Virus record (IMG/VR): IMGVR_UViG_3300023174_000011
Coordinates: 1 to 39,999 of that record
Reading direction: 5' to 3' (one strand)
DNA: 39,999 nucleotides
Source: a virus
Part shown: one piece after another, positions 4,395-36,104 of the stretch
Layout: each line of letters opens with the position of its first letter
How positions within the stretch are numbered: the stretch's first letter is position 1
Translations under genes and position numbers: made by a program
Notes under the pieces: generated by a model
The model's database searches: none
What the model was told of the DNA's origin: nothing
Seen by the model: only the letters and a program-made list of their open reading frames with translations

Positions 4395-5061
4395 AGCGAT
4401 TATATTATGTTGGTGCGACAACGGTACAACTGATGGTAAGTTTACTGAAGGCGTTGTCTATTCGGCACTAACATCTAAGTTACCTATTCAATCAGCCATG
4501 CGTGTGCAAGGCAATCAGATTGGAAGACAACGCCAAGAAGCGTTGGACTTCTGGTATGACAAGACAGACTTTGATTGGGTGCTGTGGGTAGATAGCGACA
4601 TAGTTCTTACTGAAGATGCATTACAAAAAGTATGGAACAGTGCTGACCCAATACATAAGCCAGTAGTTACAGGCACATATTTTATTTCAAAAGAAAATGA
4701 ACGTAGCCTTATGGCTCCATACCCTGCCCTATTTAATTGGACTGACAATGACTACAAGATATCTTACGTTCACCCCTTACCAGCAAATGCACTTATCAAG
4801 GTTGGTTCGGCAGGCTTTGGATTTGTGCTTATGCACCGCAACGCTGTCACAAAAATGCGAAAGATGTATGGTTCTGTCCCATACTTTAATGAAACTGGAG
4901 TCGGAGAAAACTTCGTATCCGAAGACATCAACTTCTTCAAACTCATGGGACAAGCAGGAGTCCCACTCTGGTCTCATACAGGAGCCACTGTTCAACACAT
5001 GAAACGGTTCTCATTAGATGTAAACTATTACAAATTCTTTTGGGAGAATGAACCACAATGA
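4306..5061 (+). CDS. Glycosyltransferase (GT-A-like)
   Basis: The open frame gives 251 residues. The glycosyltransferase fold begins near residue 30 (AIILCWCDNG), with the nucleotide-sugar/metal motif DSD at 96-98 in DWVLWVDSDIVLTEDA. A mid-domain GSAGFGFVLMHR and a C-terminal GENFVSEDINFF follow. This matches family-2/Anp1-like phage glycosyltransferases. It may decorate virion proteins, DNA or the host envelope; no acceptor is evident. The start is uncertain: in-frame ATGs lie at 4306, 4324 and 4360, all inside the sigma-like gene, and the first 29 residues look non-domain. The stop overlaps the next ATG at 5058. Confidence 0.78.
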   Translation: MDGNHTMTQSKKRYNQNQMQLKSTQQPKNEAIILCWCDNGTTDGKFTEGVVYSALTSKLPIQSAMRVQGNQIGRQRQEALDFWYDKTDFDWVLWVDSDIVLTEDALQKVWNSADPIHKPVVTGTYFISKENERSLMAPYPALFNWTDNDYKISYVHPLPANALIKVGSAGFGFVLMHRNAVTKMRKMYGSVPYFNETGVGENFVSEDINFFKLMGQAGVPLWSHTGATVQHMKRFSLDVNYYKFFWENEPQ

Positions 5062-30192: not shown

Positions 30193-32097
30193 CTATCCAT
30201 AGTTTTCTTGCCATTGCTCAGCGAATGCTTCGTCTAAGTTAATAGCAAATCGGTTTTCCATTTGGGCACGTGTTGCCCAGCGGTTACTTGCGTATTGTGA
30301 GGTTCTGCTTCCCGCTTGCATTAACTCACGGATGCGTATAACCGCAAACCACATAGCCATCACGCAGTCAGTCTTACCTTTAGTTTCAGGTTTCCACGTT
30401 AGTAGTTGCTGAGTTAAGGCTTTGATTCCTTCACTACTTTCTGATGATGGTAGTTCAATAATGTTATTCTTTTGGAACTTCTCTTCACGTACTGTGCCAA
30501 ACAAGTTAGACATAGAAGCAACACCAAAGGATGTATCCCATTTGTTTTTGCCAGTAAAGTGAGCATCTAGGCGAACGCCATAAGCAGAAAGCCAATTGCG
30601 CAAATCATCATCTAATGAGTAAGCCTTTTGGTGTGCGTTAATTTCTACACGGAACTCTTGTGGCTTGTAGCGAACTGTAAGTTCTTCAATCATTGCACGA
30701 ATCTTTTGTGGAGTAGGTTCACTCATGTTTACGCAATCAACAACATATATTTTGCCGTCTGCTCTGTTGTAAGTTGCTACAACAAACGCAGCATTACCCG
30801 CCATAGCAGGGTCAAAGCCAATTACAGTGTGACCCTCAACTTGAGGTGGATGTCCAGCAGCACCAGCCTTTAATGGACCTCGCTTGCGCATCCCGTTAGT
30901 TGACCCTTGCACCAGCATGGGTGGGAAGATTGAATCTTCTTGGATGTCTTCCTGTTGGTAGACGAGTGCCCACGTGCTTGGAGTAACCTCGCTCCTTCTT
31001 TTAAATAAGGCTCTGCCATCCCACTTGGGGAAGTAGCCGTTTTCTTGAGGAGTGTCTGTATCGCCATCCCACGGGACATCCGACTCTTTCCAGAGCGTAA
31101 CCCAGTCTTCTGGTTTCTCAGCATATTCCAAGACAGCAGGCATCCCCATGTAAGTAAAGGGAGTCCTACCGCCAGACCAATGCTTAGGATTACGAAGTTC
31201 TTTATAAAGGTCGTTAGCAGCAATTCGTGTCCCAACTACTAGCAGTTTACCGTTTTTACCCAAACGAGTAATTACTTCTTTCTGAAGCCAATCCATCTGC
31301 TTCTCCCACTCATGGGCATTAGCAGTTGTAATGCAGTCATCAAGAATAATTAGATCAGCACGTGCACCGTAGATTTGACCACCCATACCAAGGGCTTGGA
31401 GGGTAGGGTCTTTCTCGGAAGAGTTACGCGCATCGCCGCCAAGGTAGACTGTATCTGTACGCCAAGTATCCGCGTCACCTTTCCAACCACCCTCGGGACC
31501 ATATGCGGTCTGTAACTTGAGCCAGCGGGGATGTGACAGTCGTTGCTTGATTGCGTAGACGAACTCTCTCGCCTTATTCAAAGTCTTTGATACCACAATG
31601 ATGCGGATGTTGGGATTGAGGGCGATGCGGTAAGTTGAGTAGTTCACCGTGATAACGGTGGACTTAGCGTGCTCAGGGGGAACATTTACCAATAGGCGGT
31701 TGCTCTCACCTGGCTCATAGATCATAGAAGGGTGGAGCCATGAAGGTTCAACACCCTCTAGTAGGTCTACCCAATCCTGATGGTGGGGGAATACTGTTTG
31801 ATCTAGAAAGGCTTTAGAAAAATCTTTAAAGGGGATAGACTCTTTAGCCACACCCATTTCGGTGAAGGAGTTCTTTTGACCCTCTTCTTTGGCTTCCTCA
31901 AGGTTGCGGGCAAACTCGGGGTCACGGTTCATCCACTGACGGATGGTATCTGCTTTCTTATCTACAGATGCCATGGCAGCAGGAATAGTCCACCCAGCCC
32001 GTACCTTCTCAAGGACATCAGATTTGGCGGCAGCCAATCCCTTTACGAGGTGGTGCTCCTTACCTTTTTGAAATCCTTTGTGCGCGGGTGTCGCCAT
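30193..32097 (-). CDS. terL: Terminase large subunit with N-terminal HTH-like segment
   Basis: A protein of 634 residues from the ATG at 32097, after an aggga site; a GTG at 32133 would add twelve. ATPase motifs: Walker A-like PPEHAKST (140-147), Walker B ADLIILDD (247-254), coupling motif LLVVGTR (285-291). RNase H-like nuclease acidic residues: D429 in GFDPA, E485 in FRVEINAHQ, D577 in TDCVMAMW. Residues about 29-72 (RAGWTIPAAMASVDKKADTI, then RQWMNRDPEF) look like a helix-turn-helix, the kind of DNA-binding element normally found in the small subunit. It packages DNA through the portal. It is the first gene of the late operon. Confidence 0.92.
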   Translation of the reverse strand: MATPAHKGFQKGKEHHLVKGLAAAKSDVLEKVRAGWTIPAAMASVDKKADTIRQWMNRDPEFARNLEEAKEEGQKNSFTEMGVAKESIPFKDFSKAFLDQTVFPHHQDWVDLLEGVEPSWLHPSMIYEPGESNRLLVNVPPEHAKSTVITVNYSTYRIALNPNIRIIVVSKTLNKAREFVYAIKQRLSHPRWLKLQTAYGPEGGWKGDADTWRTDTVYLGGDARNSSEKDPTLQALGMGGQIYGARADLIILDDCITTANAHEWEKQMDWLQKEVITRLGKNGKLLVVGTRIAANDLYKELRNPKHWSGGRTPFTYMGMPAVLEYAEKPEDWVTLWKESDVPWDGDTDTPQENGYFPKWDGRALFKRRSEVTPSTWALVYQQEDIQEDSIFPPMLVQGSTNGMRKRGPLKAGAAGHPPQVEGHTVIGFDPAMAGNAAFVVATYNRADGKIYVVDCVNMSEPTPQKIRAMIEELTVRYKPQEFRVEINAHQKAYSLDDDLRNWLSAYGVRLDAHFTGKNKWDTSFGVASMSNLFGTVREEKFQKNNIIELPSSESSEGIKALTQQLLTWKPETKGKTDCVMAMWFAVIRIRELMQAGSRTSQYASNRWATRAQMENRFAINLDEAFAEQWQENYG

Positions 32098-32580
32098 TAG
32101 TGTCCCTAATCTTAGGTTGGTCGCGGGAGTCACCCCACCAACACTCCACTCACAGGAGCAGCGATAGGCAGTATATACCCGCCTACAACAGTCTATTTGT
32201 ACAGATGTTTGTACAGTAGTGAGTAAGGCTCTAAAAAGACTTACGAACTATTTTACTCTCTATATATACTTAACCTGTTCAAATAGCCTAAACGAACATA
32301 TTCTAATAAACTATTTTTTATAGTTTATAAAACTGCAGGTCAGATAGTCTATCTAGCCCCCTGTAACTATACTGACAGAAATATATTGTCAGAGATACAA
32401 TACATAATACTACAGACTATTAACATATAGGGGGTCAAAGACTGACTATAGTTAATATACAGACAGACTGACTATAGACTGTGGGTTGTATGACAGAGGA
32501 CTGTCTGCCTGTCAGTCTGGGGCACAGTATATATACTGATACTGCCAGTTAAAAATAGAATACTGGGGCTGCCTGTTTAT
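32098..32580. promoter_or_regulatory. AT-rich repeat region upstream of the late operon (candidate promoter/origin)
   Basis: No convincing gene lies here. It is AT-rich (19 G/C of 60 bases at 32221-32280). Repeats seen: TTTGTACAG twice (32196-32204, 32208-32216); a 9-pair stem ataaactat/atagtttat (32306-32314, 32320-32328) with a T5 loop; agatag/ctatct (32342-32354); ctgaca/tgtcag (32372-32377, 32387-32392); gactgactatag twice (32440-32451, 32466-32477); and the perfect palindrome cagtatatatactg (32525-32538). It sits where two operons diverge, so late and early promoters and possibly a replication origin are expected. Confidence 0.6.
32196..32216. repeat. Twin TTTGTACAG direct repeat (operator-like)
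   Basis: Two exact 9-base copies start 12 bases apart, each with the palindromic core tgtaca. They lie about 100 bases upstream of the terminase start. The spacing, roughly one helical turn, suggests a protein-binding site. Confidence 0.5.
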
Positions 32581-33165
32581 AAACCATTGCCTTGGCAATG
32601 GCTGGCAAACCCTAACCAGTCCTATCGCACTGGTCGGTCGGGACAAGGCTGTACGGCGCGTTACCACGCGCCTCGCGCCGTTCGCTCCGCTCACTGGTCT
32701 CCGATGTCGGCTCACCGCTAAAGGGTTCGCCTCGTCAGTTGACCACGCACACAGCCTCACTCTCGCTTAGCCTGTCGGCGCAGGCTCCGTCATTCCTTCC
32801 GCTTCGCTCGTCATTCCTACGCCGCGCAACGCCATGCTCTGGCTCGCCCTCCTACGGTGCCTTCATCGTATCATGTCCGTCAAATCAACCCATGCTCTGC
32901 CTATTCAGCAGAGCAAAACTGGGCTGATTTCTCTCAGCGTGGGTTACGGCTCGGCGAACTCTATGAGTTCTAATCGCCTTCGCCTACACCCAACGCATCT
33001 GCCGAGTCTTCGCAGGCTCAGCCTCGCCCCGCCAATCTGGCAAGCCTGCCAGATTGTGTGACGACGGTTACTCGGACACCGTGTCTTCGCTTCGCTCGAC
33101 ACGCTGCTCGTAACCTACATGATACTTCTTACGGCGTTTCCACATCAGGTGGATACACCGAGAAA
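32581..33165. other. GC-rich non-coding block dense in perfect hairpins
   Basis: About 585 bases with no credible gene and a sharp rise in GC (41 of 60 at 32641-32700). Perfect hairpins: ccattgcc/ggcaatgg (32584-32601), accagt/actggt (32615-32634), ggcgcgt/acgcgcc with loop tacc (32655-32672), agcctg/caggct (32769-32786), gctctgc/gcagagc (32894-32914), caatctggca/tgccagattg with loop agcc (33033-33056), and a nested ggttac/gtaacc (33066-33115) enclosing cgtgtc/gacacg (33080-33103). The 11-mer cgcttcgctcg occurs at 32800-32810 and 33088-33098. It may be a structured RNA, an origin or a packaging site; the sequence does not decide. Confidence 0.6.
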
Positions 33166-33175
33166 GGAGTAAAAA

Positions 33176-33430
33176 ATGAAAGTATATAAAATAAATAAAG
33201 CACCTGCTGAGGCTGTGTATATAGGCAGAGGCAGTGCATGGGGTAATCCTTATATAATTGGAAAGCATGGGGATAGAGATAAAGTTATCGCTATGTATTA
33301 TGTTTATGCTTTAAAAAGGCTCGCAAACGAGCCAGAGTGGCTAAAGCCACTCGAAAAGGCTAATGGCTTAGTTTGTTATTGCGCTCCGTTAAAGTGCCAC
33401 GGAGATATATTGGTTAGTTTAATAAAGTAA
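33176..33430 (+). CDS. DUF4326 protein (84 aa)
   Basis: An 84-residue protein with YIGRGSAWGNPY (15-26), a GKHGDRDKVI block, and C67, C69 and C74 in CYCAPLKCHGD. These are the marks of DUF4326, a short phage and bacterial domain of unknown function, possibly nucleotide-related. It is the first gene of the rightward operon, with a clear aaggag site nine bases before the ATG. A hairpin follows. Confidence 0.85.
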   Translation: MKVYKINKAPAEAVYIGRGSAWGNPYIIGKHGDRDKVIAMYYVYALKRLANEPEWLKPLEKANGLVCYCAPLKCHGDILVSLIK

Positions 33431-33438
33431 ATAGTTCC

Positions 33439-33464
33439 ACCTGCTACGCACACTGCTAGCAGGT
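33439..33464 (+). promoter_or_regulatory. Intergenic hairpin, twin 1
   Basis: acctgcta (33439-33446) pairs with tagcaggt (33457-33464) around a 10-base loop, 22 bases before the next start codon. The core stem and loop length match the hairpin at 33951-33989, with a T:A pair here in place of a C:G pair there. No T run follows, so a terminator is unlikely. Confidence 0.6.
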
Positions 33465-33486
33465 TTCACAGAAAAAGGAGAAAGAA

Positions 33487-33933
33487 ATGTCAGAACGTAT
33501 CAGCAACGGAATCAGCATCACCACACAGTGCTACGATTGCCTCCAAGCAGATGACCTATGCCTCGAATGTACAGAAACACGTGAAGCACGGGACTCTCAG
33601 GTCGCCCATCAACTAGTTGATGAGGGCAACCTTCAGTACAAGCATCAGTGGCTATCAGTCACAGAGCCAAGTGCCCATGACTGGGTATCCTCAGTAACTT
33701 ACCTACCAAAGCCAGCAATACTACCTGATGGCACAATCCAAGAGTTCAGGTACGAATACCTCTCACCAATCGTACAACTAGTAGATGGTGGTGAATACGA
33801 GGAACTATGGGAGTTAGACGATATGACCCAACGCGCACGTGAGGTTGAGTGCCAATGGTGTCACCTCATGACTCCTAAAGCATTCAATGATTGTCAAGAC
33901 TGTGACAAACCACTAGAAAGCAACGTAAGATAA
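33487..33933 (+). CDS. Hypothetical protein with two Cys-pair sets (148 aa)
   Basis: A 148-residue protein. The N-terminal Cys set is C15-x2-C18 and C25-x2-C28; the C-terminal set is C122-x2-C125 and C136-x2-C139. Each looks like a zinc ribbon. The middle is acidic and beta-rich. An aaggag site lies before the ATG. I know no family name. The zinc ribbons suggest nucleic acid or protein binding. Confidence 0.7.
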   Translation: MSERISNGISITTQCYDCLQADDLCLECTETREARDSQVAHQLVDEGNLQYKHQWLSVTEPSAHDWVSSVTYLPKPAILPDGTIQEFRYEYLSPIVQLVDGGEYEELWELDDMTQRAREVECQWCHLMTPKAFNDCQDCDKPLESNVR

Positions 33934-35308: not shown

Positions 35309-35668
35309 ATGGGACTAGACATGTGGTTGTATGAGAAAGAAGTACATGAAGTAGCATACTGGCGTAAAGATAATGCTATACATGGTTGGTTCATTGAGAA
35401 CTATGCCAATGGTGTAGACGATTGCAGTCCAGTACCAGTACCTAAAGAAGGCATCATTAAACTACGTGATGTATGCCTTCAAGTATTAGAAGCAAACAAC
35501 GCAGAAGTAGCAATGGAATTGCTACCACCAGTAGCAGGATTCTTCTTTGGTTCAGACCAAATAGATGATTGGTATTGGGAAGCGGTTAAAGAAACCGCTA
35601 ACAAACTAACACAGATTATTGATGAGTCTATTGAAGATCAATGGTTCGAATACCAAGCCTCTTGGTAA
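35309..35668 (+). CDS. Conserved phage protein of unknown function (119 aa)
   Basis: A 119-residue protein beginning MGLDMWLYEKEVHEVAYWRK, then NAIHGWFIENYANGVDDC, a helix, PPVAGFFFGSDQIDDWYWEAV and a helical end. I recognise the MGLDMxLY start, AYWRKxNAIHxWF and GFFFGSxxxDxWYW blocks as a widespread phage family without a known function. An aggag site precedes the ATG. Confidence 0.75.
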   Translation: MGLDMWLYEKEVHEVAYWRKDNAIHGWFIENYANGVDDCSPVPVPKEGIIKLRDVCLQVLEANNAEVAMELLPPVAGFFFGSDQIDDWYWEAVKETANKLTQIIDESIEDQWFEYQASW

Positions 35669-35678
35669 GGAGTAATAC

Positions 35679-36104
35679 ATGAAACGCATACGTGCTATAT
35701 CAATAGTTACTAGTACATATCTAGCACTCTTTGGATTTCTAGGCATACACTTCAAGTCATACGCACAACAGGTGCACTATGACCCTAAGTGTATTGAGTT
35801 TGGTCCAAAGATATGGACTAAACAATTGATTAAGAGTTACGCTATCTCATATATGAAATGGCAATTTCCTGATTGGAATCGCAGCGAACATAAAGCATTG
35901 ATGAAACTATGGAATGCTGAGTCACATTGGAATCCAGAAGCAGACAACCCTGACTCATCAGCCTATGGTGTAGCACAAGTTCTTAACACAGAACCTGGAA
36001 CACCAGCCCCTCGACAAGTCGAGAGGGGGCTGGCGTATATTGTACACAGATACGAGAAACCATCAGTCGCTTGGTCACATCACAGAAAGCACGGTTGGTA
36101 CTAA
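35679..36104 (+). CDS. Secreted lytic transglycosylase-like protein (141 aa)
   Basis: A 141-residue protein with an N-terminal signal sequence (MKRIRAISIV basic start, hydrophobic TYLALFGFLG, possible cleavage after SYA at 27-29). An SLT-like domain follows: the catalytic Glu candidate E81 in WNAESHWNP, then AYGVAQ (95-100) and a C-terminal AYIVHRYEKPSVAWSHHRKHGWY-like block typical of actinophage and actinobacterial resuscitation/SLT domains. It would cleave peptidoglycan glycan strands outside the membrane. It is expressed from the early side, far from the lysis cassette. The gene contains a strong hairpin at 36003-36033. Confidence 0.75.
   Translation: MKRIRAISIVTSTYLALFGFLGIHFKSYAQQVHYDPKCIEFGPKIWTKQLIKSYAISYMKWQFPDWNRSEHKALMKLWNAESHWNPEADNPDSSAYGVAQVLNTEPGTPAPRQVERGLAYIVHRYEKPSVAWSHHRKHGWY
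36003..36033 (+). other. Strong hairpin inside the transglycosylase gene
   Basis: ccagcccctcgac (36003-36015) pairs with gtcgag-a-ggggg-ctgg (36018-36033) around a 2-base loop: about 13 pairs with a one-base and a two-base bulge. It lies within codons for the PAPRQVERG stretch. It could pause ribosomes, block RNA decay or be incidental. Confidence 0.6.

Follow-up and report, generated by a model that had tools for sequence, protein, structure and literature searches.

The terL junction

The window, that is the whole stretch of DNA analysed here, comprises 39,999 nucleotides of IMG/VR virus record IMGVR_UViG_3300023174_000011. The gene for the large terminase subunit, terL (30193-32133, minus strand; PHROG 38, E = 1.4e-69), heads the late operon and is followed by the portal gene. 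On the opposite strand lies the first early gene, which encodes a DUF4326 protein (33176-33430, plus strand) and is absent at this place from most relatives; their conserved early neighbour is the next gene (33487-33933). The gap between terL and the DUF4326 gene consists of an AT-rich conserved spacer next to terL (32134-32574, no strand assigned; alignment A3) and a structured GC-rich block (32575-33165), which is given here on the minus (terL) strand as the likelier RNA strand and is defined by fold z-scores, homologues and compensatory changes. The DUF4326 gene is an insertion that separates the block from the conserved early gene, and a scan found relatives of it in only two viral contigs. 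TerL residues 30-84 weakly match phrog_4044, a family of small terminases. None of the genes checked was recognised as encoding a small subunit of its own; the N-terminal part of TerL is possibly a fused TerS-like domain.

The GC content of the block is 58.3%, compared to 43.4% record-wide. Only 0.05% of 585-base windows are as high, and the block is the GC maximum of the record at this scale. An earlier note on this DNA had described a gene-free block with an abrupt GC rise and dense hairpins, and its checkable statements on the block were all borne out. The GC counts are exact (41 of 60 bases at 32641-32700 versus 19 of 60 at 32221-32280). The position given for the block also stands, with the correction that the conserved unit begins a few bases further left and that the AT-rich stretch 32134-32574 is conserved too. 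The four ORFs touching the block (62-82 aa) have zero PHROG matches, and no stop-free frame of constant length was found in the relatives of the block. A protein-coding reading was rejected on these grounds; the block holds no credible gene and is non-coding.

The spacer carries inverted repeats and the short motifs CAGTCTG, TACAG and ACTGT. Across the spacer and its homologues (A3), CAGTCTG occurs about 26 times more often than expected, and TACAG and ACTGT about 5 times. The arms of the inverted repeats change together (e.g. GTAAG..CTTAC versus GAACT..AGTTC). Judged from these patterns, the spacer resembles a series of binding sites.

Homologous blocks in related phages

TerL relatives are abundant among IMG/VR contigs. 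The nearest isolate TerL proteins (64% identity) belong to two phages of Ca. Planktophila, followed by those of Streptomyces Beephvirinae (43-47%). Planktophila phages E7 and F5 form a cultured phage-host pair with Ca. Planktophila, a freshwater actinobacterium (PMC10202952). Because the nearest isolate TerL comes from Planktophila phages, the host is likely a member of the Nanopelagicales. A TerL search of bacterial genomes returned no relative and no prophage.

An iterated profile search among the TerL relatives identified nine full-length copies of the block, the window included, and a scan with the conserved hairpin raised the total to about 45 related IMG/VR loci with a homologous block. 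A second search pattern, derived from Domain II (see below), returned loci of the same family again. Wherever a locus could be homologised, its block has terL or the conserved early neighbour next to it and occupies the gap between the divergent early genes and terL. In 30 of 32 regions (600-base windows; 31 TerL relatives plus the window), the fold z-score of one or both strands is below -3. Among these 30 are the two loci closest by TerL, L004 and L005, which carry a GC-rich block without sequence similarity to that of the window; since these dissimilar blocks are structured nonetheless, structure at the junction is more widespread than any single sequence. Between conserved flanks, pairing modules have been swapped among phages (e.g. 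L026 versus L033).

The two cultured Planktophila phages show mild structure only and no detectable homologue of the block, and the Streptomyces Beephvirinae relatives have no comparable structured block; both groups were dismissed as carriers. A DNA search of named phages with the block gave no match, and a search of open papers turned up no account of a comparable element in phages of this kind. In Streptomyces phage WRightOn a local fold of the early strand reaches a z of -8.5; it lies close to where the last gene starts, some 2.4 kb before terL.

Folding and compensatory change

The dense perfect hairpins of the earlier note are real. The block contains 10 perfect stems of at least 5 bp versus 3.1 in shuffles, 7 of at least 6 bp versus 0.8, and 4 of at least 7 bp versus 0.15; none of 200 dinucleotide-preserving shuffles reached the observed counts. 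Folding of both strands, which the same note had proposed as a check, gave z-scores of -6.8 on the plus and -13.5 on the minus strand (-6.0 and -8.2 with another shuffle set), while coding controls from the same phages lay mostly between +1 and -3. One stretch of the window, 35401-36000, has a coding-strand fold z of -5.0, below the other coding stretches tested.

Two domains can be mapped on the minus strand. Domain I (32857-33162; alignments A1, A4 and A6, with pair counts) is multibranched and closed by a long-range helix, P1, whose 5' arm GUAUCAUGU (33117-33125) forms 9 bp with the 3' arm ACAUGAUAC (32868-32876). Its most conserved element, which also served as search pattern, is a long hairpin at 32882-32930 with the loop CUGAAUAGG inside GCUCUG/CAGAGC; in L020 and L038 stem letters of this hairpin have changed and the pairing is kept. 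The 10-pair stem with a 4-base loop noted at 33033-33056 is present and occupies the P2 position, where relatives have another sequence with the same pairing. Also visible in the sequence is the nested pair reported for 33066-33115 (GGTTAC/GTAACC around GTGTC/GACAC), an extra hairpin inserted inside P1, which most relatives lack and whose A1 columns are filled only in the window. Domain II (32573-32869) is the variable second domain; its pairs were counted on relatives (A5), with the divergent copy of the window left out. At the terL end of the block lies a palindromic hairpin, CCATTGCCAAGGCAATGG (32584-32601, no strand assigned), conserved in A3. On the plus strand, the hairpin H0 (33136-33156), whose wobble pairs point to the early strand, lies just before the Shine-Dalgarno sequence that serves the first early gene.

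The block shows no enrichment of GNRA loops, which counts against the RNA reading, and conserved loops across many stems give a weak signal. Recurrent mobile hairpins were also considered; a few hairpins do recur (e.g. GCGTGGTTTACCACGC), mostly at homologous places, so there is no case for mobility.

Pairing in the block is kept by compensatory change, the outcome of the covariation check that the earlier note had suggested for relatives. In Domain I (A4) 8 pairs and 20 cells are changed on both sides versus 3.8 and 7.1 after shuffling, and in Domain II (A5) 16 pairs and 25 cells versus 5.3 and 7.3; the observed double changes were reached in at most 1 of 500 shuffles for A4 and in 0 of 500 for A5, and the signal is lost in both when the structures are slid by 1-3 columns. 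Because the alignments scored here are also the ones that yielded the structures, a strand-neutral test matters more, in which both strands were folded without G-U pairs and only shared helices were retained. Here 15% of the changes at paired positions are compensatory; RNase P reaches 37%, and the coding sequence of terL 5% (p = 4e-13 for the block versus terL).

Helix P1 spans about 190-290 bases, encloses the conserved hairpin and exists in several unrelated sequence versions: GUAUCAUGU/ACAUGAUAC in the window and L112, AUACUCC/GGAGUAU in the L033 group, AUCACAUG/CAUGUGAU in L114, AGCAUGGGC/GUCCAUGCU in L075, AACAUGGGG/CCCCGUGUU in L097 and AACAUAGGG/CCCUAUGUU in L110. The search for versions allowed G-U pairs on one strand, so that only the fully Watson-Crick versions and the aligned group count as evidence. 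Within one group 3 of the 9 pairs have changed on both sides with 0 mismatches. Both the multibranched domain with its long-range closing helix and the upkeep of pairing through compensatory change are shown.

Strand of the putative RNA

Several measures lean to the terL strand. The uncorrected minimum free energy is lower on this strand at 43 of 56 loci, alignment energies are better on it in all three groups, and both P1 wobbles in A6 are G-U on it. Internal wobbles favour it by 73:36 (59:35 in unique contexts, p = 0.06), and in compensated helices without H0 the ratio of G-U to A-C is 262:207 (p = 0.013); since the sequences are related to each other, these p-values are optimistic. The composition-corrected energy test (p = 0.15) and the alignment wobble count (18:14) are not significant for strand, the tetraloop and loop-composition tests were uninformative, and counting wobbles by substitution (134:129) gave no clear preference. 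RNase P, used as control, has wobbles at 162:80, and its G-U:A-C ratio in the same test is 2.0 overall and 4.5 in compensated helices, compared to 1.02 and 1.64 for the block.

H0 votes the other way. Its seven distinct versions hold 0 G-U and 6 A-C pairs on the terL strand, equivalent to 6 G-U on the early strand, and H0 is probably a separate element in the early mRNA leader. No conserved promoter was seen upstream of a leftward RNA, whose 5' side abuts early genes that differ among relatives. Given a G-U lean far below that of RNase P and the opposite vote of H0, we take the terL strand to be only weakly favoured.

Interpretation

To our knowledge, few large structured phage RNA classes have been described, and none has an established function. 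The block shares their general features, being long, non-coding and folded into multibranched pairing that is supported by covariation. Compensatory change, the closing helix, the fixed place and the exchange of modules are observations; that the block acts as RNA is what we infer from them, as long-range covariation points to a folded single strand, most simply RNA. From the comparative evidence, the block is probably a large structured RNA family that has not yet been catalogued. We propose that it encodes a folded noncoding RNA of about 480-620 bases at the divergent early/late junction of one freshwater phage lineage. Its more probable reading direction is leftward, on the terL strand. Since the block never leaves the junction, the RNA most likely works in cis or nearby: as a structured leader of the late operon headed by terL, or as an RNA adjacent to that operon, it may for instance affect late transcription or the stability of the message. 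Taken as a whole, this proposal has in our judgement about an even chance of being correct. The earlier note had named a large phage RNA, an origin or a packaging site; its RNA suggestion stands in substance, on the strength of compensation, closing helix and synteny, and a fixed packaging end is not supported.

Alternatively, the block could form a long folded 5' leader on the early mRNA. Its transcription would start at promoters in the spacer (32134-32574) and proceed rightward, H0 and the Shine-Dalgarno sequence of the first early gene would mark its end, and it would control how the early operon is transcribed or translated. The conserved AT-rich spacer upstream does contain plus-strand promoter-like sites (CTGACA-18-TACAAT, 10 of 12 bases matching), although these fit the consensus only weakly. 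The block runs right up to the early ribosome site even where the first early gene differs, every wobble of H0 reads as G-U when taken on the early strand, and the early-strand fold z is low too. Against this stand the wobbles in the body of the block, which lean to the terL strand, and the alignment energies, which favour that strand in three groups; we regard an early leader as rather unlikely but a serious contender. The same standing, rather unlikely but serious, is given to a DNA element, be it a replication origin or similar cis site with an AT-rich repeat half and a GC-rich hairpin half, or a set of palindromes that template switching, and not RNA function, keeps perfect. Unlike those of RNase P, the wobbles show no clear strand preference (134:129; ratio 1.02), and this weak strand signature together with the iteron-like short repeats of the AT-rich half keeps a DNA role alive. 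The block is always found at the divergent junction, and cumulative GC skew is lowest at 32501-33000; this minimum, however, coincides with the point of divergent transcription and is no proof by itself. Nested helices as distant as P1 with double changes are not expected of local DNA palindromes, which could hardly explain them.

That packaging starts close to terL, at a cos or pac site, is in our view very improbable. The block does lie beside terL, and the linear records of Streptomyces phages in the Beephvirinae start some 620-680 bases ahead of terL, but the Streptomyces relatives with that record start have no structured block. In relatives with near-complete genomes (36-41 kb) the opening point lies at scattered distances from terL, which leaves the fixed packaging end of the suggested pac site unsupported. 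Two loci that end inside the block, L116 and L134, were discarded as candidates for such an end, as terL lies within those contigs.

Other structured phage RNAs offer partial parallels. The packaging RNA of phi29 (pRNA) is a structured phage RNA of about 174 bases, far from the size of the block, which also has packaging genes nearby but whose adjacency to terL is only suggestive. The put sites of HK022, which form a structured antitermination leader RNA, resemble the proposed RNA in that folding occurs where a phage operon begins; they are under 100 bases, and nothing in our data speaks for antitermination by the block. GOLLD is a large multibranched phage RNA of lake material with a variable part and unknown function, and ROOL is a phage-carried RNA of elaborate pairing (PMC12286853). 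The block resembles GOLLD in being large, multibranched, phage-borne, partly variable and from a lake, and ROOL in its about equal length, elaborate pairing and phage carriage. In contrast to both it has no covariance-model match, and its genomic setting differs, being fixed beside terL, whereas GOLLD lies near tRNA islands; near the block, one tRNA (L037) was found in 36 relatives scanned, although tRNA islands are often near GOLLD and ROOL. Size, phage and lake origin and multibranched fold notwithstanding, a divergent GOLLD, ROOL or HEARO RNA is therefore scarcely credible: no Rfam model matched the block of the window at gathering score, a permissive search of 32100-33500 found none of the three, and a scan of 26 relatives returned one tRNA only. 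The earlier note had seen no specific match to GOLLD or ROOL, and all three families are excluded as far as Rfam covariance models reach.

A further, tentative idea, which we think less likely to be right than wrong, is that the block represents a new large ornate phage RNA class of one lineage probably infecting Nanopelagicales, with helices replaced and exchanged while the architecture is kept, which could scaffold or self-assemble like GOLLD and ROOL. With helices replaced and long-range pairing preserved, the block documents the evolution of a folded nucleic acid with unusual clarity. A cultured comparison that lacks the block is available in Planktophila phages E7 and F5 (PMC10202952). 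The many sequence versions, the fixed neighbour terL and this related pair make strand, expression and role testable.

Contigs and tRNA genes

Among the contigs of the relatives, L101 (79,356 bases) carries two different terL genes with 88% and 62% identity to that of the window, and L037 (76,622 bases) two with 84% and 44%; each holds two phage genomes, either as an assembly chimera or as a real composite. In L037 a tRNA-Arg gene (4902-4974) lies between the structured block and terL, and at a comparable position L008 carries an insert that resembles a tRNA, which ARAGORN does not call. In the window, ARAGORN calls a 99-base tRNA-His (anticodon atg) at 4794-4892, inside a coding region and without Rfam support; this call is probably false. 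The two ends of the L036 contig (39,932 bases) both align to one and the same portion of the AT-rich spacer, which suggests that this genome probably closes into a circle there.
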